DNA from: an uncultured Hoeflea sp.
GTDB lineage: Bacteria; Pseudomonadota; Alphaproteobacteria; Rhizobiales; Rhizobiaceae
Assembly (NCBI RefSeq): GCF_947501405.1
Contig: NZ_CANMVK010000002.1
Span: forward strand, 124,001-188,000
Direction: 5' to 3'
DNA length: 64,000 nt
In this document: piece by piece, positions 12,528 to 29,568 of the stretch
Position numbering within the stretch: the first letter of the stretch is position 1
Layout: each line of letters opens with the position of its first letter
Translations under genes and position numbers: made by a program
The notes under the pieces: generated by a model
Database searches by the model: none
What the model was told of the DNA's origin: nothing
The model's input: the letters and a program-made list of their open reading frames with translations, nothing else

Positions 12528-12980
12528 TCAGTCTTCGGGCGGAACCACGCCCTTGCGCAACATGATGCAGCCGTAAAACCGCCGCTCGCCGGTCTGGATC
12601 ACCGCATAGGCCTGTTTGGCCAGATCGTAGAAGGCGAAACGCTCGATGCTGACCATCGGCCGGGGCTTGCCTTCCGCCGCGTCGATCGCCTGTTGCACTT
12701 CGGCCTGAACCGGCGGCACTTCTCCGGGATTGCCGACGATCTCCATGCGTCCGGCGAAATCCTCCACAAAAGTGTCGAGCGGCAACACCGACAACACTGC
12801 TTCCACGGCTTCGCCCGCCGTTAGATTGTCCATCCGCAGCAAATCGCCGATCACCGTCTGCCGGGCAATCGAATCCGAGGGAAAATTGGTGTCCGCGATA
12901 ATCAGCGTATCGCCGTGGCCCATGGCGCGAAGCGCATAGAGCACTTCAGCGTTCAGTCGCGGATCAAGTCCCTTGAGCAT
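12528..12980 (-). CDS. fucU: RbsD/FucU-family mutarotase (FucU type)
   Basis: A 150-residue sugar mutarotase interconverting the anomers of an imported sugar. The opening MLKGLDPRLNAEVLYALRAMGHGD is the FucU form of the family, with the conserved His of GHGD and IIADTNFPSDS following. The C-terminal half has FYDLAKQAYAVIQTGERRFYGCIML, also typical of FucU. The FucU type prefers 6-deoxy or galacto-configured sugars such as L-fucose, in contrast to RbsD on ribose. It lies between the transporter ATPase and a kinase in one arm of the GntR regulon, which is the main clue that the imported sugar could be an L-fucose-like hexose. Confidence 0.87.
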   Translation of the reverse strand: MLKGLDPRLNAEVLYALRAMGHGDTLIIADTNFPSDSIARQTVIGDLLRMDNLTAGEAVEAVLSVLPLDTFVEDFAGRMEIVGNPGEVPPVQAEVQQAIDAAEGKPRPMVSIERFAFYDLAKQAYAVIQTGERRFYGCIMLRKGVVPPED

Positions 12981-13032: not shown

Positions 13033-14097
13033 TCACTCAAGCCGCAATCCGCTCTCGGTATCGAACAGATGCGCCATCTCGAGGCGCGGCCTGAGCCGGA
13101 GAATGTCACCGGGCTTGAAGCCGTGGCGTTCCTGGAACACCGCGATGATCTCGCGCCCGGCGGCGCGCAACACCAGATGCGTTTCCGACCCGGTCGGCTC
13201 CACCACCGCCACCTTGGCCTCGAAGCCGGCATTGTCGAGCACCAGATGCTCCGGACGGATGCCGAAAGTGACTTTCCGACCCTCGTCGAGACCGGGAACA
13301 TCCGGCGCATCGAGCAAAACCTCCTGGGCGTCGATGCACAGCCGGCCATCCCGCCGGGACACAACGCCCTCGATCAGGTTCATCGAAGGCGAACCGATGA
13401 AGCTCGCGACAAACACATTGGCCGGCCGGTCATAGAGCTCGAGTGGCGCGCCTTGCTGCGAAATATGGCCGTCGCGCATCACGACGATCTGGTCCGCCAT
13501 GGTCATGGCCTCGATCTGGTCATGGGTGACATAGACCGTGGTGGTCGACAGCCGCTGATGCAGCTCGCGGATCTCGGTGCGCATCTGCACCCTGAGCTTG
13601 GCGTCGAGATTGGACAGCGGTTCATCAAACAGGAAGACCTGGGGTTCACGTACGATCGCCCGGCCCATGGCGACGCGCTGGCGCTGGCCGCCCGACAACT
13701 CTCTCGGATAACGCTTGAGATAGGGCTTGAGGCCCAGAATCTCTGCCGCCGTGTCCACCCGCTGGTCGATTTCCGCCCTTGGCATGCGCTGCATCTTGAG
13801 TGCAAATCCCATATTGGCGGCCACCGTCTTGTGCGGGTAGAGCGCGTAATTCTGGAACACCATGGCAATGTTGCGTTCGGCCGGCGGCAGATTGTTGACC
13901 ACCCGCCCGCCAATGCTGATCGTACCGGCGGTCACGCCCTCAAGCCCGGCAATCATTCTGAGCAGCGTGGACTTGCCGCAGCCCGAGGGGCCGACAAGCA
14001 CGACAAAGCGGCCATCGGGAATGTCGACATCGACGCCGTGGATGACTTCCACCGACCCGTAGGCCTTGTAGAGTTTCTCGATCCTGACGTCCGCCAT
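13033..14097 (-). CDS. Carbohydrate ABC transporter ATPase (UgpC/MalK type)
   Basis: A 354-residue ATPase of the sugar CUT1 class. Walker A is GPSGCGKST (36-44), the signature is [14 protein letters not shown] (134-147), Walker B is VFLFDEP (154-160), and the switch His is in VYVTHDQ. A C-terminal TOBE domain of about 110 residues is present. The start at 14097 (MADVRIEK) fits the family; an upstream in-frame ATG adds seven unconserved residues. It is divergent from the binding-protein gene with its own operon partners downstream (fucU, rbsK), and it should energise the two permeases at 16050-18090, since that side encodes no ATPase. Confidence 0.92.
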
Positions 14098-14174
14098 GCC
14101 GCCCCCGTGCTTTTGCATTGCCGTTTTGCCAAGTGGTACCCCACCGAAAAGGCGCTGTCTATCATCTAGTCATA

Positions 14175-14186
14175 CTAGCATGTTAG
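14175..14186. promoter_or_regulatory. GntR-type operator, copy 1
   Basis: CTAGCATGTTAG, a near-perfect palindrome centred on CATG, lies in the 250-base divergent region between the transporter ATPase and the binding-protein gene. It shares 19 positions with copy 3 (CATACTARCATGTTAGATG) and its 12-base core is identical to copy 2. A TTGACA box at 14191-14196 lies just downstream, facing the binding-protein gene, with no convincing -10. The GntR/FCD regulator at 25510-26208 is the obvious ligand. Confidence 0.75.
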
Positions 14187-14347
14187 ATGCTTGACAGCTT
14201 GGCGGAAGGCTGAAATGTTTTCACCCTGTCCGGAAAACCGGACCCGGCCGTTGGGAAGAAAAAGGCGTTCAGCGACCATAAAACTGGTCTCGAAGCCTCC
14301 CGGGTCCGGACCGCTGAGGAGAGCGGGCAACGCAAGGGAGGTGTTTC

Positions 14348-15979
14348 ATGAAAGTCGAATTGTTTGAACACGCAGTCAGGGTGGCCATGAGCCGCCGCCG
14401 GCTGTTGCAGGGCGCCGCCGCCGTCGGCGGCATGGCCGCCATGGGTGGCATGGGCGCCACCACCGCCGCTGCGCAGGATGATGTCCGCGCCGCAATTCTC
14501 AAGATCCCCGGCGTCGGCGCCGGATCGCCAACCGACGCCGATTGGCAAAAGGTCGGCGAAATGTGCCTTGGCGCCACCAAGGCCAATGTCGCCGAGGGCG
14601 AATTCGAAGGTGTCGAGCTGACCTTCATGGGGCTCAACAACCAGAACCTTCACAATTTCCTGTTCCGCGGCTTCCTGAAGCCATGGGAGGCCTATACCGG
14701 CGCCAAGATCAACTGGATCGATCTCGCCCAGGCCGACTACAACGCCCGTCTGCAGCAGTCGATCGCCACTGAAACGGTGGATTTCGACCTTTTGGAAATG
14801 GGTGCGCCATTCGAGGGCGACACCGCAGGCCGCGGCCTGCTCGACGAGATGCCCGATTGGGTGGCCGAGCAGATCGACGCCGACGATCTGGTGGATTATC
14901 TCAAGGCGCCGGTCGGCACCTGGGATGGCAAGACCTATCGCGTCACCATCGATGGCGACTGCCATACCTTTGCCTATCGCACGGATTACTTTGGCGAGGG
15001 CGGTATTGGCGGCGCCGAAGTGCCCAAGACCTGGCAGCAGGTCAACGAGGTGTCCAAGGCGCTGGCGGGCCAAACCGACCCGCTTACCGGCCTTCCTGCC
15101 CATGGCTATCTCGACCCGCTCAAGGGCTGGGGCGGCTTCGGCTTCTACTTCCTGGAAAACCGTGCCGCGGCCTACGCCAAGCATCCCAATGACAAGGCAT
15201 GGCTGTTCGATCCCGATACCATGAAGCCGCGGGTCAACAACCCGGCCTGGGTGCAGGCGATCCAGGACGTGATGGATTTGATCGCCACCGAAGGCGCTTA
15301 TCCCGCCGACCAGATCAACGCCGATCCGGGCACCACGGCGTTTTCGCAGTTCCTCGCAGGCACTGGCTCGATGCTGATGTGGTGGGGCGATGTCGGCTCG
15401 TCCGCGCGCACCTCCGACACTTCGGTGGTCGGCGATGTCGTCGGATTCGGCATCAATCCCGGCTCGGACCGCGTTTACAACAGCCAGACCGAGGCCTGGG
15501 AAGACACCTACAACGAGGCCCCCAACATGGCCTATATCGGCTGGGGCATCTATGTCACCAACCGCGTGTCGGGCGACGAGAAGAAGCGCAAGGCGGCCTG
15601 GTCCGCTGCGGCCCATCTGGGCGGCAAGGATCTGTCGCTTTGGACCTCGGCCTATCCGTCCGGTTTCCAGCCCTACCGCAACAGCCACTTCAACTACGAA
15701 GAATGGGAAGCGGCGGGCTACGACAGGGCTTTCGTGGAGGACTATCTCGGGTCCAACGCCGACAGCTACAACCATCCCAACGCCGCCATCGAGCCGCGCA
15801 TTCCGGGCATCTTCCAGTACTACTCGGTCGCCGAGGATGAACTGGCCAAGGGCTTTGCCGGTCAATACGGCTCGGCCCAGGAAACGGCCGACGCCATCGC
15901 CGCGGCCTGGGAGAAGATCACCGACCAGATCGGGCGGGACAGTCAGGTCGCGCTCTATAAGGCGTCTCTTGGTCTCTGA
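14348..15979 (+). CDS. Carbohydrate ABC transporter substrate-binding protein, Tat-exported
   Basis: A 543-residue periplasmic binding protein, large for this class. The N-terminus carries a twin-arginine signal: SRRRLL (15-20), an Ala/Gly/Met hydrophobic stretch, and a likely cleavage site near residue 42 (TTAAAQ). The mature part has features of sugar-binding proteins of the CUT1 class (FRGFLKPWEAYTGAKINWID, and KTWQQVNEVSKAL). A ribosome binding site GGGAGG precedes the ATG. It is followed by a strong hairpin and two permease genes, and sits directly downstream of the first operator. Substrate is not evident; regulon context suggests a 6-deoxyhexose or related sugar. Confidence 0.9.
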   Translation: MKVELFEHAVRVAMSRRRLLQGAAAVGGMAAMGGMGATTAAAQDDVRAAILKIPGVGAGSPTDADWQKVGEMCLGATKANVAEGEFEGVELTFMGLNNQNLHNFLFRGFLKPWEAYTGAKINWIDLAQADYNARLQQSIATETVDFDLLEMGAPFEGDTAGRGLLDEMPDWVAEQIDADDLVDYLKAPVGTWDGKTYRVTIDGDCHTFAYRTDYFGEGGIGGAEVPKTWQQVNEVSKALAGQTDPLTGLPAHGYLDPLKGWGGFGFYFLENRAAAYAKHPNDKAWLFDPDTMKPRVNNPAWVQAIQDVMDLIATEGAYPADQINADPGTTAFSQFLAGTGSMLMWWGDVGSSARTSDTSVVGDVVGFGINPGSDRVYNSQTEAWEDTYNEAPNMAYIGWGIYVTNRVSGDEKKRKAAWSAAAHLGGKDLSLWTSAYPSGFQPYRNSHFNYEEWEAAGYDRAFVEDYLGSNADSYNHPNAAIEPRIPGIFQYYSVAEDELAKGFAGQYGSAQETADAIAAAWEKITDQIGRDSQVALYKASLGL

Positions 15980-15995
15980 TCCCGTAGACTGATCC

Positions 15996-16025
15996 AAGCG
16001 CCGGCGGCCCGAACCGCCGGCGCTT
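15996..16025 (+). terminator. Hairpin between binding protein and permeases
   Basis: A 12-bp perfect stem, AAGCGCCGGCGG with CCGCCGGCGCTT, loop CCCGAA, starts 16 bases after the binding-protein stop codon. There is no T-run, so it is better seen as an mRNA stabiliser or partial attenuator that makes binding protein accumulate above permease. Confidence 0.7.
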
Positions 16026-16049
16026 CATTCCAATTCAGGACATCCGCAG

Positions 16050-17156
16050 TTGGCCGAGCAGGGCGATTTCCTTCACGTTGTCACCACCGACAATCTCTCC
16101 AGTCGCAGGATGGCGCTGGGCCGTGCCATAATCTGGGGCTCGGCCGGGTTCCTGGCGGTTGTGGCGCTGGCGCAGACCCTGCAGGAAACCGGCTACGCCG
16201 ATTTCGGCTTCTCCACCTGGCGACCGACGCTCTACGCCTATGTGCTGTGGGCCATCTGCCTTTGCTGGGGGCAGGTGCTGATCCGCGGGGAGCAGGGCAA
16301 GCGGGTGCTTTTCGTGCTGCCGGCCGCGCTGTTCGTGATCTCGATGGTGGTGTTTCCGCTGCTGTTCGGGCTGGTGATCGCCTTTTCGGACTGGAACCTG
16401 TCCTCGCCGACCGGCCGCACGTTCAATGGCCTCGACAACATCCGGCAGATGTGGAACGACGATTTCTACTGGAATGCGCTCGCCAACATGGTGCGCTACA
16501 CGCTGGCCATCATCGTCGAATACGCCATCGCCTTCGGATTGGCGCTGCTGCTCAATTCGCAAATCCGCGCCCGCAAGTTTTTCCGCGTCGCCTTTTTGAT
16601 GCCGCTGATGCTTTCACCCGTGGCGGTGAGCTGGATGATCGGCAAGTCGATGATGGAAATCCGCTTCGGCCCGCTGGCGCGGCTGGCGCGGGAACTGGGC
16701 TGGGATTCGCCGTCCTTCTTCGGGTCTCCGGAAATGGCCCGTTTCACCATCATGGTGATGGACGCCTGGACCTATATTCCGTTCATGATGATCATGATCC
16801 TGGCGGGCCTGCAGGCGATCCCCAAGGATATCCAGGAGGCCGCAAAGGTTGATGGCGCACGCGCCTGGCGCGGGTTCTGGGAGGTCACCTTTCCGCTGAT
16901 GCTGCCGGTGTCGATCACCGTGATCCTGATCCGCATCATCTTCAAACTGAAGCTTGCCGACATCATCATCAACGTGACTGCCGGAGGACCGGGCGGCGCC
17001 ACCGACAGCGTCACCAGTTTCATCTTCAGGGAGTATCGCGACCGCTCCAATGTTGGCTACGGAACGCTTCTGGCCATGTTCTATCTGGTGCTGATCGTCA
17101 TCGCCATCACCATTGTCATGAAACTCACCGACCGCTGGGCGCGGCCGCGCTATTGA
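16050..17156 (+). CDS. Carbohydrate ABC transporter permease (MalF type)
   Basis: A 368-residue inner-membrane permease with about eight hydrophobic segments, two of them in an N-terminal extension. The EAA loop is EAAKVDGARAWRGFWEVTFP near residue 267, and the C-terminal GGPGGATD is typical of MalF-type subunits. The proposed start is TTG, preceded by AGGA nine bases upstream; an ATG 60 bases downstream has only an overlapping AGG. It lies after the binding-protein gene and 16 bases before the second permease, with which it should form the channel. Confidence 0.88.
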   Translation: MAEQGDFLHVVTTDNLSSRRMALGRAIIWGSAGFLAVVALAQTLQETGYADFGFSTWRPTLYAYVLWAICLCWGQVLIRGEQGKRVLFVLPAALFVISMVVFPLLFGLVIAFSDWNLSSPTGRTFNGLDNIRQMWNDDFYWNALANMVRYTLAIIVEYAIAFGLALLLNSQIRARKFFRVAFLMPLMLSPVAVSWMIGKSMMEIRFGPLARLARELGWDSPSFFGSPEMARFTIMVMDAWTYIPFMMIMILAGLQAIPKDIQEAAKVDGARAWRGFWEVTFPLMLPVSITVILIRIIFKLKLADIIINVTAGGPGGATDSVTSFIFREYRDRSNVGYGTLLAMFYLVLIVIAITIVMKLTDRWARPRY

Positions 17157-17172
17157 CCGGGGAGGCGAGACC

Positions 17173-18090
17173 ATGAGCCAGCAGATCTTTCACGACAGTC
17201 CCTCCGACCTCGCCCACAAGACCAAGTGGTTGTCGGGTCGCGTCGCTGTCTATGGCGCCTTGATCCTTTGGGCGATCATCTGCCTGTTCCCGATCTACTG
17301 GACCATCACCACCTCGTTCAAGATGGCGCCCGATGTGATGCGCGGCAATCTCATCCCGTTTTGGGATTACCAGCCGAAGTGGCTGGGCTGGAGATCGCTG
17401 GGGATCTCGCCCGACACCATCGGCGCGGAATCCACCGTGCGCGAGGAATTCCTCAAGCGCTTTCTCAATTCGGTCATCACCGCGCTGTCGGCGTCCGCAC
17501 TGGCGGTGTTTTTGGGATCGCTGGCCGCCTATGGATTGTCGCGCTTTTCCTATCGCTTCGGGTTCATGCGCAACTCCGACATCTCGTTCTTCTTTCTCAG
17601 CCAGTTGATCCTGCCGCCGGTGGTTCTGGCGCTGCCGTTTCTGGTGCTCTACAAATCGCTGGCGCTGCTCGACACCCGCATCGGCCTTATCCTGCTCTAT
17701 ACGCTCACCGTGCTGCCCATCGTCATCTGGATCATGCGCGACCAGTTCGCCGGAATCCCGAAAGAACTTGAGGAAGCGGCCCTGGTCGATGGCCTGTCGA
17801 TCTGGGGCGCATTTGCCACCATCGTGCTGCCGATCGCGCTGCCGGGCATGGTGGCGGCCTTCATTCTGTCACTGGTGCTGACCTGGAACGAGTATTTCTT
17901 CGCAGCCCTTCTGACTTCGACCCACGCCAACACATTGCCGGTGATGGTGGCGAGCCAGACCGGCAGCCAGGGCATCAGCTGGTGGTCAATGGCAGCCCTG
18001 TCCTTCGCCGCCATCCTGCCGCTGATCGTTATCGGCATCCTGCTGGAGCGTTACATCATCAAGGGCATGGCCGCGGGCGCGGTGAAGTAG
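17173..18090 (+). CDS. Carbohydrate ABC transporter permease (MalG type)
   Basis: A 305-residue inner-membrane permease with six membrane segments; the first spans about residues 26-47. The EAA loop reads EEAALVDGLSIWGAFATIVLP near residue 197, and the protein ends IIKGMAAGAVK, the usual MalG-type end. A GGGGAGGCGAGACC stretch precedes the ATG. Last gene of the plus-strand transporter arm that starts at the first operator; it pairs with the MalF-type permease upstream and, presumably, with the divergent ATPase. Confidence 0.9.
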   Translation: MSQQIFHDSPSDLAHKTKWLSGRVAVYGALILWAIICLFPIYWTITTSFKMAPDVMRGNLIPFWDYQPKWLGWRSLGISPDTIGAESTVREEFLKRFLNSVITALSASALAVFLGSLAAYGLSRFSYRFGFMRNSDISFFFLSQLILPPVVLALPFLVLYKSLALLDTRIGLILLYTLTVLPIVIWIMRDQFAGIPKELEEAALVDGLSIWGAFATIVLPIALPGMVAAFILSLVLTWNEYFFAALLTSTHANTLPVMVASQTGSQGISWWSMAALSFAAILPLIVIGILLERYIIKGMAAGAVK

Positions 18091-18175
18091 TTCAGGGACG
18101 GCGGTGCTCCGGAGCGTATGATGGTTACCCGCGGCACAGGAACTGATCCGCTATGGTACGCTCAAGGTAAGCTGC

Positions 18176-19669
18176 TCATTTGCCTGTATCCAGTTCAGCC
18201 ATGATGTCTTTGGTCTGCTGATAGAGTTTGAGAAACAGCGGGTATTGCCGCTCATAGGCGGCATGGTGCGCGGCGTGGATCGTCTCTGCCGCGGGGTTCC
18301 AGATGGTCATGTCGTCTCGCGCGGCCCGTCCAACCGCAAATGCCGCCAGGAACGCATCGCCATAGGAGGCGCCGGTGGTGGTTTCGCAGACGATCTGGTC
18401 GAGCCCGCTCAGATCGGACGTCGCCTGGAGCCAGGGCCGGTTCTTAGTGCCGCCGCCCACCGCCAGCACCCGCGCCGGTCGCTGCCCCGCTTCGGCATAG
18501 GTGTCGGCGATATGACGCGTGGCCGAGGCGATGCCTTCGAGAACGGCGCGATACATGTCGCCGCGATCATGGGTCAGGTCGAGCCCGAAGAACGTGCCCT
18601 TTGCCTGGGTGTCGTGGATCGGCGTGCGCTCGCCGGAGAAATAGGGAAGGCAGATCAGTCCCCTGGCACCCGGCGGCGAGGCCTCGGCTTCCCTGGCCAG
18701 CACGCCGAACGCACCGTCGCGTGCAAGCTCCCGGGCGAAGCGGTCGCGGAACCAGTGCGTCAGAGTGCCCGATGTCGCAAGCCCCGCCATGGCGGCGTGC
18801 TCGCCGGGAAACAACCACGGCGCATGCCATAGCCGTGCATCGGACAGCCGCCTGTCGGATAGCAGGATTATGAAGATGGTCGAGCCATACATCATCATCA
18901 TATCGCCAGCCTGGCGCACCCCGACACTGACCGCCTCCGCCGCCGCATCGATAGTGCCGCAGGTCACCGGCGTGCCCGCGGCCAACCCGGTATCGTGCGC
19001 GGCGTCATCGCTCACATGCCCGGCGATCTCGGTCGACCACATCAGCCGGGGCAGCCTGTCTGGCGGACAGAAACTCGCAAGATCGAAACACCAGTCCTGT
19101 TTGGCGATGTCGTAGAGTGGCGAGAAATTGGCTGCCGTATAGTGATCGATCACATAGTCGCCGGTCAGCCGGTAGGTCAGATAGCTGGTCGAGGTCAGGA
19201 TCTTGCCGGTCTTGTCCCACAGCTCCGGATGGTTGCGTTTGAACCACAGGATCTTGGGCCCGACCGATTGCGAGGTCAGCGCATTGCCGCAGCGCGCCAG
19301 GATTACGTCTTCGCCGATTTCGGCGTTCAAATCATCGATCTCGCGCGCGGCCCTTGTGTCGACGCCGTAAAGCACGCCATTGCTCAGCGGTGCGCCATCG
19401 GCATCGACAGGCAGCATGCAGGGACCTATGGCAGAGGTCGCCACCGCCTTGATTTCGGCCGGATCGACACCGCTGTCGGCGATCAGCTTTCGGGTGATGA
19501 AAACGAAATCGCCCCACCAGTCCTCTTCGGCCCGGTGCTCGGCCCAGCCGGGCCTTGGCACGATCATCTCATGGGCGCGGGCGGCCTGGGCGATGATGCG
19601 GCCGCCATCGGCAACCAGCACGCCTTTGGATTCGAAGGTGCCGATATCGACGCCGAGTGTGTAGCCCAT
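18176..19669 (-). CDS. FGGY-family carbohydrate kinase (xylulokinase-like)
   Basis: A 497-residue sugar kinase of the FGGY family. The N-terminal phosphate-binding strand is GVDIGTFESKGVLV (5-18), the central domain has CGTIDAAAEAVSVG with the probable catalytic Asp, YFSGERTPIHD is the xylulokinase-like FGGY signature, and VLAVGGGTKNRPWLQ is the second ATP motif. It should phosphorylate a keto-sugar (pentulose or hexulose) in the cytosol. It is the last gene of the arm BtpA-M42-kinase reading from the second operator, with 3 bases between it and the M42 gene. A TIM-barrel sugar isomerase elsewhere in the regulon could supply its ketose. Confidence 0.87.
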   Translation of the reverse strand: MGYTLGVDIGTFESKGVLVADGGRIIAQAARAHEMIVPRPGWAEHRAEEDWWGDFVFITRKLIADSGVDPAEIKAVATSAIGPCMLPVDADGAPLSNGVLYGVDTRAAREIDDLNAEIGEDVILARCGNALTSQSVGPKILWFKRNHPELWDKTGKILTSTSYLTYRLTGDYVIDHYTAANFSPLYDIAKQDWCFDLASFCPPDRLPRLMWSTEIAGHVSDDAAHDTGLAAGTPVTCGTIDAAAEAVSVGVRQAGDMMMMYGSTIFIILLSDRRLSDARLWHAPWLFPGEHAAMAGLATSGTLTHWFRDRFARELARDGAFGVLAREAEASPPGARGLICLPYFSGERTPIHDTQAKGTFFGLDLTHDRGDMYRAVLEGIASATRHIADTYAEAGQRPARVLAVGGGTKNRPWLQATSDLSGLDQIVCETTTGASYGDAFLAAFAVGRAARDDMTIWNPAAETIHAAHHAAYERQYPLFLKLYQQTKDIMAELDTGK

Positions 19670-19672
19670 CGC

Positions 19673-20770
19673 CTATGTCTCCCGCGTCAGCTTGAAATCC
19701 GGACCGATATTGCCGATCGCCGCCAGTGCCAGTTCGCACATCGATTGCAGATCGGACAGATCGCAGCATTCGACTGCCGAATGGGAATGCCGCATCGGAA
19801 AACCGATATCGATCGAGGCCACCCCTTCGCCGACCAGTTGCACATAGGACAGGTCCGTCAGCACACCGATCTGCGCCGAGCGCTGCAACGGCATGTCCAG
19901 TTCCGCCGCGGTGTCCTCGAACAAGCTGACCATCGAAGGATGTGGAATCACCCCGTTGAGCGTGCCGCGCCCGTGAAATGAGTAAAGGCTGATCCCCGGT
20001 CCGCCGCCAAGCCGCATGTCGCCGCGATCAGCCAGATCGGGCGTATCGGTGGCCAGCATCAGGTCGATCTGGATGGCGATGTCCGGCTGCAGCGCCTGCG
20101 CCGCCACCAGTGCGCCGCGCAGATTGAATTCCTCCTGCACGGAAAACACCACATGCACCGTCGGCCCGCCGTCGCGAGCGGCCAGGCCACGGGCAATTTC
20201 CAAGAGCGCCGCGCAGCCGGCCCGGTCATCGACCGAGGGTCCCGCAACCCGGTTGCCGGCGAGTTCGATAATACGCGCTTGATAGACCACCGGCGTGCCG
20301 ATCTTGACGCCGGCGGCCTCGACCGCCTGTTTCGAGCCATGACCGGTGTCGATCAGGATCTCCGGCGTCGGCACCACCTTGTACTTCTCGTCCGGCGTCG
20401 TGGCGTGATGCGCCTTGTTCATGATGATGCCGGGCACGTCGCGACCCTCGCCGATACACAGCGTTACCGCCTGCGCCGCCATGGCGCGTTCGGAGACCCC
20501 GCCCATGCGCTCGACCCGGATCAGGCCATCCGCCTCGATTCGGCGCACGAAAAAGCCCAGCTGATCCATATGGGTGAAGATCATCACCGAGGGGCTTTCC
20601 GGTTCGCCTTCGAAACTGGCGATCACATTGCCCATCCGGTCGACCCGGCTTTCAACACCCGCATCCGAGAAACGCGCGCGGATCAATCTGGCGACCCGCT
20701 CCTCATGGCCAGACAGGCCCGGTGTCCTCATCAGGTCGTAAAGATCGGTGCGCAACCGGCCCGTCATCAC
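19673..20770 (-). CDS. M42-family metallohydrolase (FrvX/SgcX-like)
   Basis: A 365-residue protein of the M42 glutamyl aminopeptidase/endoglucanase-like family. The dinuclear metal set is intact: His67 and Asp69 in THMDQLG, Asp181 in DDRAG, Glu213/Glu214 in VQEE, Asp236 in IQIDLM, and a late His in MRHSHS. Family members FrvX, SgcX and YpdE sit in E. coli sugar operons with unknown physiological role. Here it overlaps the BtpA gene by ATGA and is followed closely by a sugar kinase, so a role in processing a sugar conjugate is more likely than bulk peptide degradation. No signal peptide; cytosolic. Confidence 0.87.
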   Translation of the reverse strand: MMTGRLRTDLYDLMRTPGLSGHEERVARLIRARFSDAGVESRVDRMGNVIASFEGEPESPSVMIFTHMDQLGFFVRRIEADGLIRVERMGGVSERAMAAQAVTLCIGEGRDVPGIIMNKAHHATTPDEKYKVVPTPEILIDTGHGSKQAVEAAGVKIGTPVVYQARIIELAGNRVAGPSVDDRAGCAALLEIARGLAARDGGPTVHVVFSVQEEFNLRGALVAAQALQPDIAIQIDLMLATDTPDLADRGDMRLGGGPGISLYSFHGRGTLNGVIPHPSMVSLFEDTAAELDMPLQRSAQIGVLTDLSYVQLVGEGVASIDIGFPMRHSHSAVECCDLSDLQSMCELALAAIGNIGPDFKLTRET

Positions 20771-21579
20771 GCGTCCCCGCGCGCGGCGCGGGCGCGATCC
20801 ATCAGGTCCTTCGCGCGCTCCGGATCGATCGCCTTCCAGGTGTCGCCATCGATCTTCAGCGCCGAGCCGATGATGCAGCCATCAGCCACTCGAAGCACAT
20901 CGCCAATGGTCTCGTGCTTGACCCCTGTATTGGCAAGCACCGGCGTGCCCGGCAGGACCGCCTTGACCGCTTCGAGATCCGAAAGTGCGGCCGCCTCGCC
21001 GGTGATCTGGCCCGAGACCAGCACCGCGTCGGGGATCGAGGAAAACACCGCGCTGCGCGCCCGGTCGGCAAGCGGCCGCCGGTCGAGACTGTCGGCGAAT
21101 TCTGCCGACACATTGTAAAGCATCGCCAGATCGCTGCGCCCCAGCCGGTCGCGATAGCGCATCGCCTTGCCGGCATCGGGAGTCCACGGGCCCATGTCGC
21201 TGGCATAGGTGCCGGTGAAGATCTCGCGCACAAAGGCTGCGCCGGTGGCGGCAGCCAACGCCACCGAACTCATCGGGTCCCACAGCACGTTGACGCCAAA
21301 GGGGATCTCGATTTCGTCACGCAACTTGCCGATGACATAGGCCATGGTGGCGGTCGACGCGGTGTCGACACTAAACTCATAGGGCCGGTCGTTTTCGTTG
21401 CCGAACATGATGGCGTCGAAGCCGGCCGCCTGCAATGCGCCAAGATCGGCGCGGGCCGCCACCACCAGACCGTCGAGCCCGGCCGCCCGGTCATGCAGGG
21501 GCGAGCCGGGCAACGCACCCAGATGCACCATGCCGACCACCGGCTTTCCCGATCCAAAAACATCAGTGAAATTGCTCAA
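20767..21579 (-). CDS. BtpA/SgcQ family TIM-barrel protein
   Basis: A 270-residue protein of the BtpA/SgcQ family. The start VVGMVHLGALPGSP (14-27) and the C-terminal phosphate-binding-like GCIIGSALKIDG are recognisable family features. The family is named after a cyanobacterial photosystem I biogenesis factor, but the bacterial SgcQ branch is found in sugar operons and its reaction is not established. Pairing with an M42 hydrolase is the same as sgcX-sgcQ in E. coli. It is first in its arm, directly divergent from the aldose dehydrogenase gene across the second operator. Confidence 0.85.
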   Translation of the reverse strand: MSNFTDVFGSGKPVVGMVHLGALPGSPLHDRAAGLDGLVVAARADLGALQAAGFDAIMFGNENDRPYEFSVDTASTATMAYVIGKLRDEIEIPFGVNVLWDPMSSVALAAATGAAFVREIFTGTYASDMGPWTPDAGKAMRYRDRLGRSDLAMLYNVSAEFADSLDRRPLADRARSAVFSSIPDAVLVSGQITGEAAALSDLEAVKAVLPGTPVLANTGVKHETIGDVLRVADGCIIGSALKIDGDTWKAIDPERAKDLMDRARAARGDA

Positions 21580-21640
21580 TACAGTCTCCCAATCCTCGCG
21601 CAGGCCAGAATGAGGACTAGGCAGCGCTTCACCAAATATA

Positions 21641-21652
21641 CTAGCATGTTAG
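21641..21652. promoter_or_regulatory. GntR-type operator, copy 2
   Basis: CTAGCATGTTAG, identical in its 12-base core to copy 1, in the 90-base gap between the divergent BtpA and aldo/keto reductase genes. Being only 17 bases before the reductase start codon, it overlaps or adjoins that gene's ribosome binding region and could block both promoters of this short divergent region. Confidence 0.75.
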
Positions 21653-21669
21653 CAGGCAGGGAGATGCAG

Positions 21670-22698
21670 ATGCAATTGAAGACACGACATTGGGACCGGA
21701 TCGGAAACGGTGGGCTGACATTCACCGAACTGGGCTTCGGGACCGCGCCGCTGGGCAATCTCTATCGCGCCATTAGCGATGAAGAGGCCGATGCGGTGCT
21801 CACCCGCGCCTGGGATCTGGGCGTGCGCTATTACGACACCGCGCCGCTTTATGGCCTCGGCCTGTCGGAAACCCGGCTGAACCGGTTTTTGCGCGACAAG
21901 CCGCGCGATCAATATGTGCTCTCGACCAAGATCGGCCGGCTGCTGCGGCGCTGCGAAGCAGGCGAGGAGCGTGATTGCATCGGCAAGTTTTTCGATGTCC
22001 CGGCCCGCAAGGAAGTCTACGATTACAGCTATGACGGGGTCATGCGCTCGGTGGAGTTCTCGCTCGAGCGGCTTGGTGTGGATAGCATCGATATCCTGTT
22101 CGCTCATGATCTCGACATCTTCAATCATGGCAGCCAGGAAGCGCTTGACGCCAAGTTGGCCGAGTTGATGTCGGGCGGCTACAAGGCGCTGGTCAGCTTG
22201 CGTGATCAAGGGACGATCAAGGCCTTCGGCGCGGGTGTCAATGAATGGCAGCCCTGCCAGTGGATGACCGAGCAGGGCGATTTCGATCTGTTCCTGCTGG
22301 CGGGGCGGTACACGCTGCTTGAACAGGAGGCATTGGAAAGCTTCCTGCCGCTGGCCACCAAACGCGGCATCGGCATCATCATCGGCGGGCCCTACAATTC
22401 AGGCATTCTCGCCACCGGCGCCAAACCCGGCGCGTATTACAATTACGATCCCGCGCCGCAGGACATTCTCGACCGTGTCGCAAGGATCGAGGCGGTTTGC
22501 CAGCGGCACGGTGTGCGCATGGTCGATGCGGCTTTCCAGTTTCCGCTGCGCCATCCGGCGGTGGTCTCGGTCATCCCCGGCGGCCAGGGCGTCTCCGAGA
22601 TGGATGCCAATCTGGCCGCTGCCACTGCCGCCATTCCCGGTGCCTTGTGGGACGATCTCAAGGCCGAAGGTCTGATGCGCGATGACGCGCCGGTCTGA
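21670..22698 (+). CDS. Aldo/keto reductase, L-fucose/D-threo-aldose 1-dehydrogenase-like
   Basis: A 342-residue NAD(P)-dependent aldo/keto reductase. The catalytic tetrad is visible as Asp56 and Tyr61 (DTAPLYG), Lys87 (STKIGR) and His146 (FAHDLDIF). ELGFGTAPLGNLY near the N-terminus matches the branch that oxidises L-fucose, L-galactose or D-arabinose at C1 to the lactone. The ATG at 21670 has GGGAG six bases upstream; one at 21664 is also possible. The next gene is a COG3618-type lactonase, the expected next enzyme, 20 bases downstream. This supports a non-phosphorylating aldose oxidation pathway. Confidence 0.87.
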   Translation: MQLKTRHWDRIGNGGLTFTELGFGTAPLGNLYRAISDEEADAVLTRAWDLGVRYYDTAPLYGLGLSETRLNRFLRDKPRDQYVLSTKIGRLLRRCEAGEERDCIGKFFDVPARKEVYDYSYDGVMRSVEFSLERLGVDSIDILFAHDLDIFNHGSQEALDAKLAELMSGGYKALVSLRDQGTIKAFGAGVNEWQPCQWMTEQGDFDLFLLAGRYTLLEQEALESFLPLATKRGIGIIIGGPYNSGILATGAKPGAYYNYDPAPQDILDRVARIEAVCQRHGVRMVDAAFQFPLRHPAVVSVIPGGQGVSEMDANLAAATAAIPGALWDDLKAEGLMRDDAPV

Positions 22699-22718
22699 GT
22701 GTCAGGAAAGACTTACCC

Positions 22719-23558
22719 ATGAAGATCGACGCCCACCAGCATTTCTGGAATCCAAGCCGCGGCGATTATGACTGGATGCCGATGGACAACGAGGTCCTGG
22801 CCCGGCCCTATATGCCGTTTGATCTCGCACCCGAGCTTGAAAACCACGGAATTGATGCGACAATTCTGGTTCAGGCCGCCGCCACGGTGGAGGAGACCGA
22901 GTACATGCTCGGCATCGCCGACGCCACGCCGTTCGTTGCCGGCGTTGTCGGCTGGGTGGATTTCGAGAATCCCGCCGGTCTCGAAGTCCTGAAGCGGCTC
23001 GCCGGGCATCCGAAGTTCAAGGGTGTGAGGCCGATGATCCAGGACATCCCCGACGATGACTGGATGCTTCGCGACGATGTACAGTGGGGATTTCAGGCGA
23101 TCACCGATCTGGATCTGACCTTCGATGCGCTGGGGTTTCCCCGGCATCTGGCCAACTTCCTCACCATCCTCAAACGCTATCCGGAAATGCGGGTGGTCGT
23201 CGACCATTGCATGAAACCGCAGATCCGCGACCATTCAGACGCTACGTTCCGGTTCTGGGCGGATGGCATGGCGCGGATCGCCGGCGAAACCAGCGCTTTC
23301 TGCAAGTTTTCCGCACTGGTCACCGAAGCCAATCCGGGCTGGATCGTCGAGGATCTCAAACCCTATGCCGATCATGTGTTCGAAGTTTTCGGCCCGGAGC
23401 GGGTGATGTGGGGCTCGGACTGGCCGGTTTGCCAATTGGCTGCGAGCTACAAGGACTGGCATGCGGCGGCGGAAGCCCTCACCGCCCGGCTGGACGCAAG
23501 CGCGCAAGCCCAGATCTATGGCGGCTCTGCGGCCCGTTTCTACCGCATCGGTGTTTGA
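22719..23558 (+). CDS. Amidohydrolase, L-fuconolactonase-like
   Basis: A 279-residue TIM-barrel amidohydrolase of the COG3618 lactonase group. Metal ligands visible are His6 and His8 in DAHQHFW, a mid-protein His in VVVDHCMKP, and the Asp in MWGSDWPVC. Members hydrolyse sugar lactones such as L-fucono- or L-rhamnono-lactone to the aldonic acid. The gene follows the aldose dehydrogenase directly, which makes the lactone product of that enzyme its likely substrate. No signal peptide. It converges with the PfkB kinase gene; the 42 bases between hold no clear terminator. Confidence 0.87.
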   Translation: MKIDAHQHFWNPSRGDYDWMPMDNEVLARPYMPFDLAPELENHGIDATILVQAAATVEETEYMLGIADATPFVAGVVGWVDFENPAGLEVLKRLAGHPKFKGVRPMIQDIPDDDWMLRDDVQWGFQAITDLDLTFDALGFPRHLANFLTILKRYPEMRVVVDHCMKPQIRDHSDATFRFWADGMARIAGETSAFCKFSALVTEANPGWIVEDLKPYADHVFEVFGPERVMWGSDWPVCQLAASYKDWHAAAEALTARLDASAQAQIYGGSAARFYRIGV

Positions 23559-23600
23559 TTGCCTTCACACAGACAAGTCGCCTTCAAAGCTCGTTGACGC

Positions 23601-24497
23601 CTAGGTGCTGCGCACCAGCGCTTCGACATCCGCGCGGGTGATGGCGCTGCGCCGGTCAAGCGTGGCTGATACGTGCAGTGCCGCCGCAGCCTGTCCGAAA
23701 TCCACCGCCTGGCGAAGCTGCGCGCCGCTGTCCGATGCTGCTGCCAGCGCGCCTAAAAACGCATCACCTGCCCCATGGGTCGAGACAACCGCTACGTTAT
23801 GACCGGGAAGGTGGGTGACGGTCTCCGCTTCGGCCAGCACCACGCCATCTCCGCCCAGCGTCAGTATCACCGAACCGGGGCCGATTGCGGTCAGCGACCG
23901 GGCGGCAGAGAGCGGCTCCAGCGCATTCTCGTTTTCGCCCAGCATGTCGGCTGCTTCCACCCGGTTGACCACCAGCGTGTCGACCAGGCCGAGCAATTCG
24001 GCGCCGACTTTGCGGGCCGGTGCGGCATTCAACATCACCTGAACGCCCGCCGCGCGCGCCCGCTGCGCGATTGCCAGATTGACGGCTTCAGGAACTTCGT
24101 TCTGCAAAAGCACGATCGAAGCATCGTCGGGCAGAACGATCCGGTCCGGCTCGATCTGGAGATTGGCGGCCGAGACAATCACCGCGCCATAACCGCCTGC
24201 CGGCTCGACAATGGCGACGCTCATCCCGGATGCACCCGGGTCGCGCTGCACTTGCGAGGTCTCGACACCCGTCGCTTCAAGGCCATTCAGCAGCACAGCG
24301 CCGGCGGCATCGTCGCCCACGCGCCCGGCGAAATGCGTGGCTGCGCCCATGCGTGCGGCGGCCACCGCCTGATTGCCGCCCTTGCCGCCCATGATGTAGT
24401 TGACCGCGCCGCCGGCCACCGTCTCGTCCAGCCGCGGCAGATGCGGCGCGTCCACCACCACGTCATAATGCAACGATCCGCAAACGAAGACGCTCAC
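23601..24497 (-). CDS. PfkB-family sugar kinase
   Basis: A 298-residue ribokinase-like kinase with GGKGGNQAVAAARMGA near residue 38 and the catalytic THGAGDAFLGA near 240. It is a different protein from the other PfkB kinase in this regulon (11505-12425): the signatures are shared but much of the rest is not. It overlaps the isomerase gene by ATGA and is the last gene of the GntR arm. It could phosphorylate either a free sugar or a 2-keto-3-deoxy acid made by the UxaA-type dehydratase; sequence alone does not decide. Confidence 0.85.
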   Translation of the reverse strand: MSVFVCGSLHYDVVVDAPHLPRLDETVAGGAVNYIMGGKGGNQAVAAARMGAATHFAGRVGDDAAGAVLLNGLEATGVETSQVQRDPGASGMSVAIVEPAGGYGAVIVSAANLQIEPDRIVLPDDASIVLLQNEVPEAVNLAIAQRARAAGVQVMLNAAPARKVGAELLGLVDTLVVNRVEAADMLGENENALEPLSAARSLTAIGPGSVILTLGGDGVVLAEAETVTHLPGHNVAVVSTHGAGDAFLGALAAASDSGAQLRQAVDFGQAAAALHVSATLDRRSAITRADVEALVRST

Positions 24498-25477
24498 CTG
24501 GTTGTCCCGTAAAGCGCTTCGGCGACGATGCCGAGCGAACGCGTCGCATCCTGCCGGGCAATGGCCGAGGCCAGCGCCGCATTGTCCACCAGGCCTGCGG
24601 CGGTGCTTCTCAGCCGCTCGGCCATCATGATGTTGGCGCGCGCCTCGTCGCAGGGATCGAGCCCGCCATGATCTGGAAAGGTGTCGAAATAGATCACCCC
24701 GTCATAGCCCATGCGTTCGAGTTCGACGAACAACTCTACCGTCTGCACCGGATGCACCGAACCCACCATCAACCCGTCGTCGCGCTTGCCGTAGCCGTCA
24801 TTGAGATGCACGCCCAGAAGCCGCGAATGCCGCGCGACGAGATGCGCCGAATGCGCTGGCAATTCATCGGCGTAAAGAACATGGGCGAAATCCAGCGTCA
24901 CGCCCAGATTGGGTCTCTCCGCCTCCTTGACCGCCAGCAGCGTTGTCCCGATGTCGGGCATCAAGGCATAGGCGCGCGGCTCGTTGGGCTTGTATTCGAT
25001 GGCGATATCGAGCCTCGAATCGTGATCGGCGACTGCGGCGAGTGCTGCGATGGTGTCGTCCCACATCCGTCCGTAATCGCCCTGGAACGAGTAATCGACG
25101 CCATCCTGGCCCATCCACAATGTCATCAGCGAGCCACCCATCTCAGCGAGTGCGTCGAGACCGCGTTTGGTGATGTCGATGGCCGCCTGGCGAACTTTCA
25201 CATCGGGATGGGTAAAGGCGCCGAGCCTGAAGCCGGGATCGGTGTAGTAGCGCATCGCCAGTCCGTTGAGCGCCATGCCATGGTCCGACAGGATCCGCGA
25301 CAGCTCCGCGGGCGTGTGATAGGCGAAATGATCGGGATAGTTCAGGTCCGCGGCGTCGAGCCCGTCCACCTGGCCCGCGCGGGCGATCATGTCTGCCGCG
25401 GTGGGTTTGCCCGGCAGCCCGGTCTTGAAAGCGTTCAGCCGGGCGGCGTAGCGCGGGCGGTTGGGCAAATCGGGCAT
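24494..25477 (-). CDS. Sugar isomerase/epimerase, xylose-isomerase-like TIM barrel
   Basis: A 327-residue protein of the AP-endonuclease-2/xylose isomerase-like TIM-barrel family. Likely metal ligands are the Glu in IAIEYKPNEPR, the Asp in VTLDFAHVLY, the His in GVHLNDGYGK and the acidic residue in IYFDTFPDHGG. These enzymes interconvert aldoses and ketoses or epimerise ketoses. It lies between the regulator gene and the PfkB kinase gene in one arm; with the FGGY kinase in another arm, it could form an isomerise-then-phosphorylate branch. Substrate unknown. Confidence 0.82.
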   Translation of the reverse strand: MPDLPNRPRYAARLNAFKTGLPGKPTAADMIARAGQVDGLDAADLNYPDHFAYHTPAELSRILSDHGMALNGLAMRYYTDPGFRLGAFTHPDVKVRQAAIDITKRGLDALAEMGGSLMTLWMGQDGVDYSFQGDYGRMWDDTIAALAAVADHDSRLDIAIEYKPNEPRAYALMPDIGTTLLAVKEAERPNLGVTLDFAHVLYADELPAHSAHLVARHSRLLGVHLNDGYGKRDDGLMVGSVHPVQTVELFVELERMGYDGVIYFDTFPDHGGLDPCDEARANIMMAERLRSTAAGLVDNAALASAIARQDATRSLGIVAEALYGTTR

Positions 25478-25509
25478 CGGCAGCCTTTCAGGAATGGGTG
25501 CGAAAACTT

Positions 25510-26208
25510 CTAGGCGTTGTCGAACAATTCCGGCCGCTGATCGACCAGCGGTTCGAGCAATTTGACCAACTGGCGCAGGTGATGCTTGGTGGCCTCGCGT
25601 GCGGCTTGCGCGTCGCGGGCTTCGAGCGCCGCCACAATCGCCCGGTGCTCGTTCAGCGTGGCTTCAATGCGGCCGGGTGTGGGAAGGTTGAGCCGGCGTG
25701 CGCGGTTGACATGAACCCAGGCAGTGTCCGCCAGTATCGCCAGCCGCTTGTAACCGGTGAACGACAGGATCAGCTCATGCATCTGCGCATCCATCTGGTA
25801 AAAACCGGGGATGTCGCCATCCTGCATCAACGCTTCCTGGACCCGCAGATTGCGTTTGAGCAGAACCAGTTGCTCATCGGTGATGGTTTGGGCGACGATT
25901 TCGACCGCCGCCAGTTCCAGCGCTTCGCGCAGGAATGCGCCCTCGCGGATTTCGTCCATTGAAAATCGGGCCACGAAGGTGCCGGCTTGCGGCACCACAT
26001 TGACGAGCCCTTCCGCTGAAAGCCGCGCCACGGCTTCCGCCACCGGCGAGCGCGACACGCCAAGTTCCTCGCAGATTTCGGATTTCTGCATGATTTCGCC
26101 GGGCCGGAAGGTCAGGGACAGGATCGCCTGCTTCAGCGACATGTAGACTTTCTGCGCGAGCGACCCGGGAAACTCGTCAAGTGGTTGCAACGCGGGTCGT
26201 GATTTCAT
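25510..26208 (-). CDS. GntR-family transcriptional regulator with FCD domain
   Basis: A 232-residue regulator. The winged helix occupies residues 20-80, with QKSEICEELGVSRSPVAEAVARL as recognition region. The C-terminal helical FCD domain has the metal/ligand-binding set Asp140, His144, His188 and His210. The start at 26208 has GAGAG upstream; an alternative upstream ATG at 26244 would put codons into the operator region and lacks a ribosome binding site. It heads its own operon (isomerase, PfkB kinase) and has the best copy of the shared palindrome 38 bases before its start, so it is probably autoregulated and the master of the whole 11.5-27.9 kb regulon. Confidence 0.93.
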   Translation of the reverse strand: MKSRPALQPLDEFPGSLAQKVYMSLKQAILSLTFRPGEIMQKSEICEELGVSRSPVAEAVARLSAEGLVNVVPQAGTFVARFSMDEIREGAFLREALELAAVEIVAQTITDEQLVLLKRNLRVQEALMQDGDIPGFYQMDAQMHELILSFTGYKRLAILADTAWVHVNRARRLNLPTPGRIEATLNEHRAIVAALEARDAQAAREATKHHLRQLVKLLEPLVDQRPELFDNA

Positions 26209-26245
26209 GGACTCTCGCAGTGGATTAACCTTAGCTTGTAGCATA

Positions 26246-26257
26246 CTAACATGTTAG
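26246..26257. promoter_or_regulatory. GntR-type operator, copy 3 (perfect palindrome)
   Basis: CTAACATGTTAG is a perfect 12-bp palindrome between the divergent GntR and UxaA genes. On the minus strand, TTGACA (26278-26273) and TAACAT (26256-26251) form a promoter with 16-bp spacing whose -10 lies inside the palindrome, so binding would shut off the regulator's own operon. Confidence 0.78.
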
Positions 26258-26327
26258 ATGGAACCTTAGGCCTGTCAAGCCGATGCCCGGTTTGAGACGT
26301 CAGGCCTTTATACCGACGGACCGGCCG

Positions 26328-27854
26328 ATGACAACCAAACTCCCTCCGGCGCTTCGCCTGCATCCCGACGACAATGTGATCATAGCGCTCGCTGATCTGG
26401 CGCCGGGTGCGCACCTTCCAGGGCTGGAGCGGCCGCTGGCGCAAGCTGTGCCGCGCGGCCACAAGATTGCCGGCGTCAAAATCGGCAAGGGTGCGCAAGT
26501 GATCCGCTATGGCCAGACCATCGGCGTGGCGACAGCGGATATCGCCCCCGGTGAACATGTGCATGTCCAAAATCTGGGAATGGGTGGACATGGTGCCGAT
26601 TATGCATTTGCGACGGAGGTGAGGGCGCTGCCGGGTCAACCGGAGCCGCGGCATTTCATGGGCTATCATCGCAGTGACGGGTCGGTCGGCACCCGCAACT
26701 ATCTCGGCATACTCACCTCGGTCAATTGCTCGGGTTCGGTGGCGCGCTTCATCACCGAGGCGGTGGAGCGGCAGGGCTGGCTTTCCGAATTTGAAAATGT
26801 CGATGGCGTGGTGCCGATCGTGCATGGCACCGGCTGCGGCATGTCGGGCAGCGACGAGGGCTACCACACCCTGTTTCGCACGCTTCAGGGCTATGCCCGC
26901 AATCCCAATTTCGCAGGCATTTTGTTGCTCGGGCTTGGCTGCGAGGTCATGCAGGTTCCCGATCTGGTCGGCCGAGGACGAATGCGAACTGACAAGAACT
27001 TCCGCTACATGACGATCCAGCAATCGGGCGGCACCCGCAAAACCATCGAGCGCGGCGTCGAGCAATTGAAGGAGATGGCGGAGGCCGCCAACCGGATCAC
27101 CCGCCAGCCGGCGGGGCTCGAACATCTGATGATCGGCCTTCAGTGCGGCGGCTCCGACGGCTACTCCGGTATCACCGCCAACCCTGCGCTGGGCGCGGCT
27201 TCGGACCTGCTGGTCGCTCATGGCGGCACCACCATCCTGTCGGAGACTTCTGAGATCTACGGCGCCGAGCACCTGCTCACCCGTCGCGCGGTCACCCCTG
27301 AAGTGGGCGAGAAAATCGTCGAGCGGATCCGCTGGTGGGAGGATTACACCGCCCGCAATGGCGGCGAGATGGACAACAACCCTTCGCCCGGCAACAAGAA
27401 AGGCGGGCTGACGACCATTTTGGAAAAATCCCTCGGGGCGGTCGCCAAGGGCGGCACGGCGCCGCTCACGCAAGTCTATAAGTTCGCCGAACCGGTGACC
27501 GAACGCGGCTTCGTGTTCATGGACAGCCCTGGTTATGATCCCTGTTCGGTCACCGGCCAGATCGCTTCCGGCGCCAATCTGATTGCGTTCACCACCGGCC
27601 GCGGATCGGTGTCGGGCTACAAGCCGACGCCCTGCATCAAGCTTGCCACCAATTCCGAAATGTATGGCCGCATGGCCGAGGACATGGACGTCAATTGCGG
27701 CGACATCGTCAGCGATGGCGTCAGCCTTGAAACCAAGGGCCGCGAGATTTTCGAGCTGTTTCTGCGCGTTGCCTCGGGCGAACAGACCAAAAGCGAGGAA
27801 CTCGGTTTCGGCGGCGCCGAATTCGTTCCCTGGCAGATGGGCGCGGTGATGTAA
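26328..27854 (+). CDS. UxaA-family aldonate dehydratase (altronate dehydratase type)
   Basis: A 508-residue two-domain UxaA-type dehydratase. The N-terminal SAF-like part covers about residues 1-90 (PGEHVHVQNL near its end). The catalytic part shows SVNCSGSVA, HGTGCGMSGSDEG, LGLGCEVMQVP, LQCGGSDGYSG and NPSPGNKKGGLTTILEKSLGA, the family's cysteine-containing iron-binding motifs. Start chosen at 26328 (MTTKLPPALRL); an upstream in-frame ATG adds 15 non-conserved residues. It would dehydrate an aldonic acid to the 2-keto-3-deoxy acid, following the dehydrogenase and lactonase of the same regulon. The usual L-fuconate dehydratase is an enolase-superfamily enzyme, so this would be a non-orthologous substitute or a sign of another substrate. 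Confidence 0.88.
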   Translation: MTTKLPPALRLHPDDNVIIALADLAPGAHLPGLERPLAQAVPRGHKIAGVKIGKGAQVIRYGQTIGVATADIAPGEHVHVQNLGMGGHGADYAFATEVRALPGQPEPRHFMGYHRSDGSVGTRNYLGILTSVNCSGSVARFITEAVERQGWLSEFENVDGVVPIVHGTGCGMSGSDEGYHTLFRTLQGYARNPNFAGILLLGLGCEVMQVPDLVGRGRMRTDKNFRYMTIQQSGGTRKTIERGVEQLKEMAEAANRITRQPAGLEHLMIGLQCGGSDGYSGITANPALGAASDLLVAHGGTTILSETSEIYGAEHLLTRRAVTPEVGEKIVERIRWWEDYTARNGGEMDNNPSPGNKKGGLTTILEKSLGAVAKGGTAPLTQVYKFAEPVTERGFVFMDSPGYDPCSVTGQIASGANLIAFTTGRGSVSGYKPTPCIKLATNSEMYGRMAEDMDVNCGDIVSDGVSLETKGREIFELFLRVASGEQTKSEELGFGGAEFVPWQMGAVM

Positions 27855-29553: not shown

Positions 29554-29568
29554 GTCGGACGCCTCCCT

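Follow-up and report, generated by a model that had tools for sequence, protein, structure and literature searches.

Does a single regulator govern the predicted sugar-catabolic genes at 11.5-27.9 kb of a 64,000-nucleotide stretch of DNA from an uncultured Hoeflea sp. (NCBI RefSeq assembly GCF_947501405.1, contig NZ_CANMVK010000002.1, positions 124,001 to 188,000; hereafter the window), and which sugar might these genes serve? A first-pass annotation had noticed by eye three copies of one palindrome in the divergent intergenic regions of this block, and had proposed that they tie six transcription arms to the GntR/FCD gene next to the third copy. A pattern scan found all three copies, exact, each between divergent genes of the block (CTAGCATGTTAG at the putative operators 1 and 2, CTAACATGTTAG at the putative operator 3; Table 1), and the GntR/FCD gene does adjoin copy 3.

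A palindrome confined to the block and kept with its GntR gene

The palindrome is rare. When up to two mismatches were allowed, the window yielded eight strand matches, a number reached by none of 100 dinucleotide shuffles (mean 1.48); the next best place after the three copies lies at 63287 and carries two mismatches, in agreement with the earlier failure to spot a further copy. Across the 4,451,211 bases (11 contigs) of the genome itself, CTARCATGTTAG with up to one mismatch occurs at three places, all in the block and all exact, as compared with 8 forward and 4 reverse matches for the backwards control pattern. The first-pass annotation had named a motif common across the genome as what would speak against it; all three places lie within the block. 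Its one numerical slip concerns copies 1 and 3, said to agree over 19 positions: 18 of the 19 are identical (CATACTAGCATGTTAGATG versus CATACTAACATGTTAGATG).

Open reading frames and family scans place 15 genes in the block, where twelve or more had been proposed. They are arranged as six arms that diverge in pairs from three intergenic regions: UgpC, FucU and ribokinase facing the substrate-binding protein (SBP) and two permeases; FGGY, M42 and BtpA facing the aldo/keto reductase (AKR) and the amidohydrolase; and GntR, a TIM-barrel isomerase-like protein (TIM) and PfkB facing UxaA. Since neighbouring arms converge at 18.1 and 23.6 kb, each of the 15 genes sits in an arm headed by one of the three sites. 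Very probably, the GntR/FCD protein acts locally through the three palindromes, as a repressor of all six arms and so also of its own gene. A dimer would bind CTARCATGYTAG in the three divergent control regions and shut off the arms, and would be released when a sugar acid, L-fuconate or its 2-keto-3-deoxy product, binds the FCD domain. At operator 3 the palindrome covers the gntR -10 box, so the regulator would there block RNA polymerase directly.

Table 1. Features of the block, with window coordinates and the evidence for each assignment
Feature	Positions	Strand	Evidence
Ribokinase-family kinase	11505..12425	-	One ribokinase cut-off met, another not
RbsD/FucU-family mutarotase	12528..12980	-	Best NCBIfam L-fucose mutarotase, 88.9 bits, cut-off 141 not met
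UgpC-type ABC ATPase	13033..14118	-	Subfamily cut-off met
Putative operator 1, CTAGCATGTTAG, between UgpC-FucU-kinase arm and SBP-permease arm	14175..14186	.	Orthologous sites SBP 8/8, UgpC 7/7
Sugar ABC transporter SBP (putative)	14348..15979	+	No Pfam or NCBIfam match; weak PDB match to sugar-binding proteins; named partly by position
ABC permease 1	16050..17156	+	Family scan
ABC permease 2	17173..18090	+	Family scan
FGGY sugar kinase	18176..19669	-	Family scans
M42 metallohydrolase	19673..20770	-	36% identity to E. coli SgcX
BtpA/SgcQ family protein	20767..21579	-	44% identity to E. coli SgcQ
Putative operator 2, CTAGCATGTTAG, between BtpA-M42-FGGY arm and AKR-amidohydrolase arm	21641..21652	.	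Orthologous sites BtpA 36/42, AKR 44/63
AKR, proposed L-fucose (or L-galactose/D-arabinose) dehydrogenase	21664..22698	+	Family; nearest solved relatives L-galactose dehydrogenases, E 2.5e-34
Amidohydrolase_2, proposed L-fucono-lactonase	22719..23558	+	Best NCBIfam L-fucono-1,5-lactonase, 222 bits, cut-off 400 not met; PDB 4dlf, E 8.6e-42
PfkB/ribokinase-family kinase, GntR arm	23601..24497	-	Family scans
Xylose-isomerase-like TIM-barrel protein, GntR arm	24494..25477	-	Family scans
GntR/FCD regulator, proposed repressor	25510..26244	-	Pfam GntR (N-terminal winged HTH) 66.5 bits, FCD (C-terminal) 96.5 bits, both over cut-offs
Putative operator 3, CTAACATGTTAG, between GntR and UxaA; overlaps gntR -10 box	26246..26257	.	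Orthologous sites 77/80 loci
Promoter-like TTGACA-16-TAACAT of gntR	26251..26278	-	TTGAC 20 or 21 bases upstream of site start in 56/77 loci
UxaA/GarD-family sugar-acid dehydratase, proposed L-fuconate dehydratase	26283..27854	+	Pfam family scan; start 26283 or later ATG

We followed the palindrome in two sets of genomes. A scan of named genomes gave 247 relatives of the GntR protein, the best matches being Hoeflea, of which the best 80 loci were kept (1,387,810 bases, largely Hoeflea and Rhodobacterales); the second set comprised 199 genomes of the family, with orthologs called at E at most 1e-50. A site here means at most one mismatch to CTA[AG]CATG[TC]TAG unless another limit is given. GntR orthologs were present in 15 of the 199 family genomes, the Hoeflea genome itself included, and all 15 have a site beside gntR. 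Exact CTAACATGTTAG occurs in 14 of the 15 GntR-positive and in 14 of the 184 other family genomes (Fisher P 5e-13). Upstream of gntR in the 80 loci, 46 carry the exact 12-mer, 19 have one mismatch and 12 have two, so that at up to two mismatches the site is conserved beside 77 of the 80 orthologs; lack of such conservation was the other finding that the first-pass annotation had said would count against it. By comparison, each of 59 control palindromes (permuted half-sites of the same composition) stood upstream of gntR in at most one locus. Over the whole of the 80 loci exact CTAACATGTTAG was found 57 times, against 0 for the 59 controls, and matches with one mismatch numbered 108, against a control mean of 0.6 and a maximum of 4.

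The sites also fall where promoters would be expected. Of 153 sites over the 80 loci, 150 lie at a mapped gene start, defined as the stretch from 300 bases upstream of the start to 20 bases within the gene (13.5% of the bases); when sites less than 20 bases apart were merged, the count was 141 of 144. Among loci with the gene start in view, the genes that head the arms carry the site (UxaA 62/62, GntR 76/80, BtpA 36/42, AKR 44/63, SBP 8/8, UgpC 7/7), as does an alternative dehydratase, FucD, in 5/8, and genes internal to the arms mostly do not (TIM 0/44, amidohydrolase 0/43, M42 1/43, FGGY 2/45). Permease 1 (7/25) and an SDR relative (4/25) are intermediate. The sites are confined to this block in the Hoeflea genome and are kept with its genes in relatives, as expected for a single-regulator regulon, which supports the earlier proposal that the six arms answer to one regulator.

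Seven of 18 BtpA-centred regions from the family genomes (L193-L196, L198, L200, L201) share much of the gene set, and in the 19.9 kb read these clusters have neither a GntR ortholog nor a site, suggesting that the gene set is also found under other control and that the palindrome travels with the regulator; we regard them as apparent cases of regulator replacement. One of them (L200) comes from a genome, G164, whose GntR and its site are on another contig, and in the GntR-positive genome G197 a one-mismatch site stands just before BtpA on a separate contig (L209). Sites, their confinement to the block and their conservation with regulator and genes are observed directly; that the regulator binds them is what we infer from this pattern.

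Two counts weigh against this reading: three of the 80 GntR orthologs (L078, L091, L101) have no site near the gene at up to two mismatches, and the AKR site is present in only 44 of 63 loci.

A proposed oxidative route for L-fucose or a related sugar

Families of dehydrogenase, lactonase and sugar-acid dehydratase appear to be placed under one control. Together they point to a pathway that would oxidise L-fucose, or else D-arabinose or L-galactose, to which it is related in stereochemistry. In the proposed route, SBP, the two permeases and UgpC would take up the sugar, FucU would mutarotate it, AKR would oxidise it, the amidohydrolase would open the lactone and UxaA would carry out the dehydration. 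The structure nearest to the amidohydrolase, PDB 4dlf, is titled 'Amidohydrolase 2'.

The loci of some relatives hold candidates for parts of the route that the block lacks. UxaA is found in 62 of the 80 loci, an SDR relative in 25 and a FAH relative in 17; for the FAH protein the closest match is 2,4-didehydro-3-deoxy-L-rhamnonate hydrolase, at 446 bits against a cut-off of 500. Five loci without UxaA (L076, L080, L085, L098, L102) have instead an enolase-superfamily dehydratase with its own site (NCBIfam matches below cut-off), which we take, by resemblance and context, to be FucD. SDR and FAH relatives then follow at 70% identity or more in L076, L080 and L102 and as weaker matches in L085, and neither was seen in the L098 locus. 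A clean swap of UxaA for FucD does not describe these loci in full: L067, L086 and L087 hold both, with FucD there lacking a site, and 13 of the 18 UxaA-less loci show no FucD in the stretch examined. Nine more distant GntR orthologs (50-57% identity; G013, G014, G061, G112, G116, G117, G153, G164, G187) have UxaA beside the site, and their regions often also hold AKR, FucU, FAH or SDR.

Several observations count against this route. UxaA, FucU and the amidohydrolase score below curated NCBIfam cut-offs. UxaA is missing from 18 of the 80 loci in the stretch examined, and four of the closest Hoeflea (L036, L037, L040, L041) have none beside gntR, three of them with a weakened gntR site in which the centre bases are changed. 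The window block has neither the 2-keto-3-deoxyfuconate dehydrogenase (SDR) nor the diketo hydrolase (FAH), and the nearest SDR and FAH genes of the same genome are found outside it, on contigs C4 and C1, and have no neighbouring site; the last steps of the proposed route would therefore be outside the regulon here.

The regulon could also be as described and its substrate be D-arabinose or L-galactose, in which case UxaA would dehydrate D-arabinonate or L-galactonate. The three sugars share configuration, the nearest solved AKR structures are L-galactose dehydrogenases, and D-arabinose is a live alternative because the accessible text of PMC6336799 describes a gene cluster for D-arabinose in P. 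mimosarum. Its D-arabinonate dehydratase belongs to the UxaA/GarD family, and the AKR of the same cluster oxidises L-fucose as well as D-arabinose. The block resembles that cluster in this pair of enzymes. In the part of the account available, however, a KDP dehydratase comes next, whereas in the present set the SDR and FAH relatives of 25/80 and 17/80 loci are found. A 6-deoxy sugar is favoured by the FucU-family mutarotase, a lactonase nearest to L-fucono-lactonase, the enolase-type dehydratase of five UxaA-less loci and a FAH protein nearest to a 6-deoxyhexonate hydrolase, although most of these matches are below curated cut-offs and such enzymes can be promiscuous. We consider D-arabinose or L-galactose the less probable substrates, with a chance large enough to be taken seriously, and retain L-fucose as the predicted one.

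A predicted fucose regulon of this general kind has already been published. The accessible part of PMC5507952 (2017) reports a complete oxidative L-fucose pathway and ABC transporter in Rhodobacteraceae bin08, with a figure of predicted FucR sites; among the matches listed in our search on fucose regulons, it alone seemed to the point for Alphaproteobacteria. Judged from the name only, our locus L080 (Rhodobacteraceae bacterium HLUCCA08) is probably the bin08 genome. L080 holds this GntR, the enolase-type dehydratase, SDR, FAH and the sites; the window block has UxaA and no SDR or FAH. The published prediction thus concerns a probable member genome, and priority for the core regulon may belong there. 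In the main text of that source, as far as accessible, BtpA, FGGY and ribokinase go unmentioned and the regulator family and motif are not given. Our literature search found no paper containing the operator string CTAACATGTTAG, and none joining three of BtpA family, SgcQ, SgcX, M42, FGGY and ribokinase. What the present analysis would add to the first-pass annotation is an operator that lies over the gntR -10 box and reaches the gntR start, the missing TKGT/ACMA boxes, the missing helix arginine, and the presence of SgcQ and SgcX relatives in the regulon. The repeat spotted by eye thereby becomes a predicted regulon. Its operator is defined, is found again throughout Hoeflea and Rhodobacterales, and can be used to annotate fucose-type catabolism there.

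Anatomy and predicted recognition of the putative operator

Across the 77 anchored loci, seven of the 12 operator positions are invariant. TTGAC lies 20 or 21 bases upstream of the start of the site in 56 of them, and this spacing makes TAACAT within the site the likely gntR -10 box; the TTGACA-16-TAACAT promoter that had been proposed to overlap the palindrome is indeed found at 26278-26251 on the minus strand. A single base separates the gntR ATG (26244) from operator 3, an alternative start 36 bases further in being possible, and an in-frame ATG one base past the palindrome occurs in 57 of the 77 loci. The second codon after that ATG is CTA or TTA in 35 of the 57; by contrast, this pair accounts for about 0.25% of the 90,852 codons counted in four genes from the same loci. 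We infer that the second codon is part of a further, overlapping half-site under DNA-level constraint, and that the gntR transcript probably starts at or near its ATG and is leaderless. Two overlapping palindromes offset by 8 bases are present in nine loci (L068, L076, L080, L086, L087, L088, L092, L102, L105), and extra half-sites near GntR-family sites are known (PMC4494728, accessible part).

At operator 2 the AKR ATG (21664) is 11 bases past the palindrome. The scan gave no sigma-70-like promoter at either operator 1 or operator 2, so that in those two regions the placing of the site is no proof of repression, and the regulator might act as an activator or repress some arms and activate others. 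We regard this as improbable, because the site lies over the gntR -10 box in most relatives, which fits repression.

The protein and its operator both depart from what is usual for their group. They resemble the FadR subfamily, in the accessible text of PMC4494728, in the GntR helix-turn-helix and FCD domain, the short palindromic operator in divergent regions and the extra half-sites. FadR-type regulators commonly recognise a consensus with TKGT/ACMA boxes, NanR and BioR being exceptions according to the same text, whereas CTAACATGTTAG has no such boxes. The regulator differs as well: of 92 loci scanned, three were left unaligned with no whole copy in view, and in all 89 aligned orthologs a recognition-helix position is Ser (59), Ala (23) or Thr (7). 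Elsewhere in the Hoeflea genome, nine other FCD matches yielded eight further distinct helices, one match having no helix of its own, and all eight carry Arg at this position. This position presumably matches the DNA-contacting Arg of E. coli FadR. D152, H156, H200 and H222 are invariant in 15 sequences; FCD metal sites have conserved Asp and His residues, and some of these four may be the ligands. The joint departure of regulator and operator makes the pair a case for testing the recognition code.

This regulator does not have the palindrome to itself in other genomes, a point against the main reading. Of the 14 GntR-negative family genomes with the exact 12-mer (L137-L150), 11 have a distant GntR gene within the 3 kb read, which suggests that other GntR regulators use the same palindrome. 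A simple rule by which loss of the helix arginine gives this motif was weakened by the same set, as nine of the 11 keep the arginine; three of these nine have the site 100-120 bases from the aligned helix-turn-helix, and six have it about 1 kb away. The other two, from G064 and G167, are 38-39% identical and have Ser or Ala at the helix position, and in G064 a UxaA relative (61%) lies on the opposite side; because of these features they may be distant members.

The 12-mer near unrelated GntR genes in some other genomes would speak for a rival reading, in which the palindromes are bound by another regulator, FCD or unrelated, and the local GntR is a mere neighbour. This seems to us very improbable: sites track this GntR ortholog in 77/80 loci and are missing from the seven similar clusters with no GntR ortholog in view, and the Hoeflea genome has no site near any other FCD gene. 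Short palindromes do arise by chance, but repeats of chance or purely structural origin, unrelated to regulation, are rejected almost entirely by the genome-wide confinement, the conservation and the control palindromes.

A further site was noted: in the GntR-positive genome G187 a CTAGCATGTTAG site (L121 at 9944; C16:130943) lies 234 kb from the GntR locus, with no mapped block gene in the 19.9 kb read around it.

A proposed BtpA-M42-FGGY branch and its surroundings

The BtpA-M42-FGGY arm, the two ribokinase-type kinases and the isomerase-like protein would form a co-regulated branch beside the oxidative route. The block shares relatives of SgcQ and SgcX with the E. coli sgc operon and differs from it in lacking, among its 15 genes, relatives of the phosphotransferase system genes sgcA, B and C and of the epimerase sgcE, with a FGGY kinase instead. 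An HxlB-like SIS protein, likewise unlike the sgc operon, is present in the loci of 16 relatives and absent from the block. The accessible text of a 2026 E. coli study (PMC13343008) describes the substrate and function of SgcQ and SgcX as unestablished, and no PDB sequence relative of BtpA was found at E 0.01. Co-regulation, together with clustering with fucose-type genes in GntR-free clusters, suggests a sugar of this group for BtpA and M42. A fucose-only role for the branch is weakened: 57 of the 199 family genomes have BtpA at E at most 1e-30, 51 of them without this GntR, and among the 18 BtpA regions read, besides the seven that carry much of the same gene set, several (L199, L202, L203, L204) have BtpA, M42 and FGGY without fucose-type genes.

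Tentatively, and with doubt that all its parts would hold together, we can combine these threads. SgcQ (BtpA), SgcX (M42) and the sugar kinase would make up a branch in which L-fucose or a stereo-related sugar is phosphorylated, and this would hint at the substrate of the E. coli sgc operon; the regulator group would have an operator class of its own, AAC-AT-GTT without TKGT/ACMA boxes, recognised by a helix that lacks the usual arginine; and the operator would span the -10 box and the first two codons of a leaderless gntR mRNA. The sugar context of the SgcQ and SgcX relatives already suggests substrates to test.

Some neighbouring genes were also recorded. Clustering placed a protein whose nearest match is creatininase (below cut-off) close to the regulon in L065, L070, L081, L093, L106, L108 and L114, and tblastn did so in 17 of the 80 loci. 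In the window, a GMC oxidoreductase and a small protein without a Pfam match (27982-30093, minus strand) are convergent with UxaA and carry no site. Just past the end of the UgpC-FucU-kinase arm lies a region (9205-11225, minus strand) with the GDP-mannose 4,6-dehydratase gene gmd (Pfam); the window scan found no site in the gap between it and the arm. The gene beside gmd looks like fcl, and we take the pair to be for GDP-L-fucose synthesis. In two relatives, L043 and L049, gmd (93%) is also found near the regulon.

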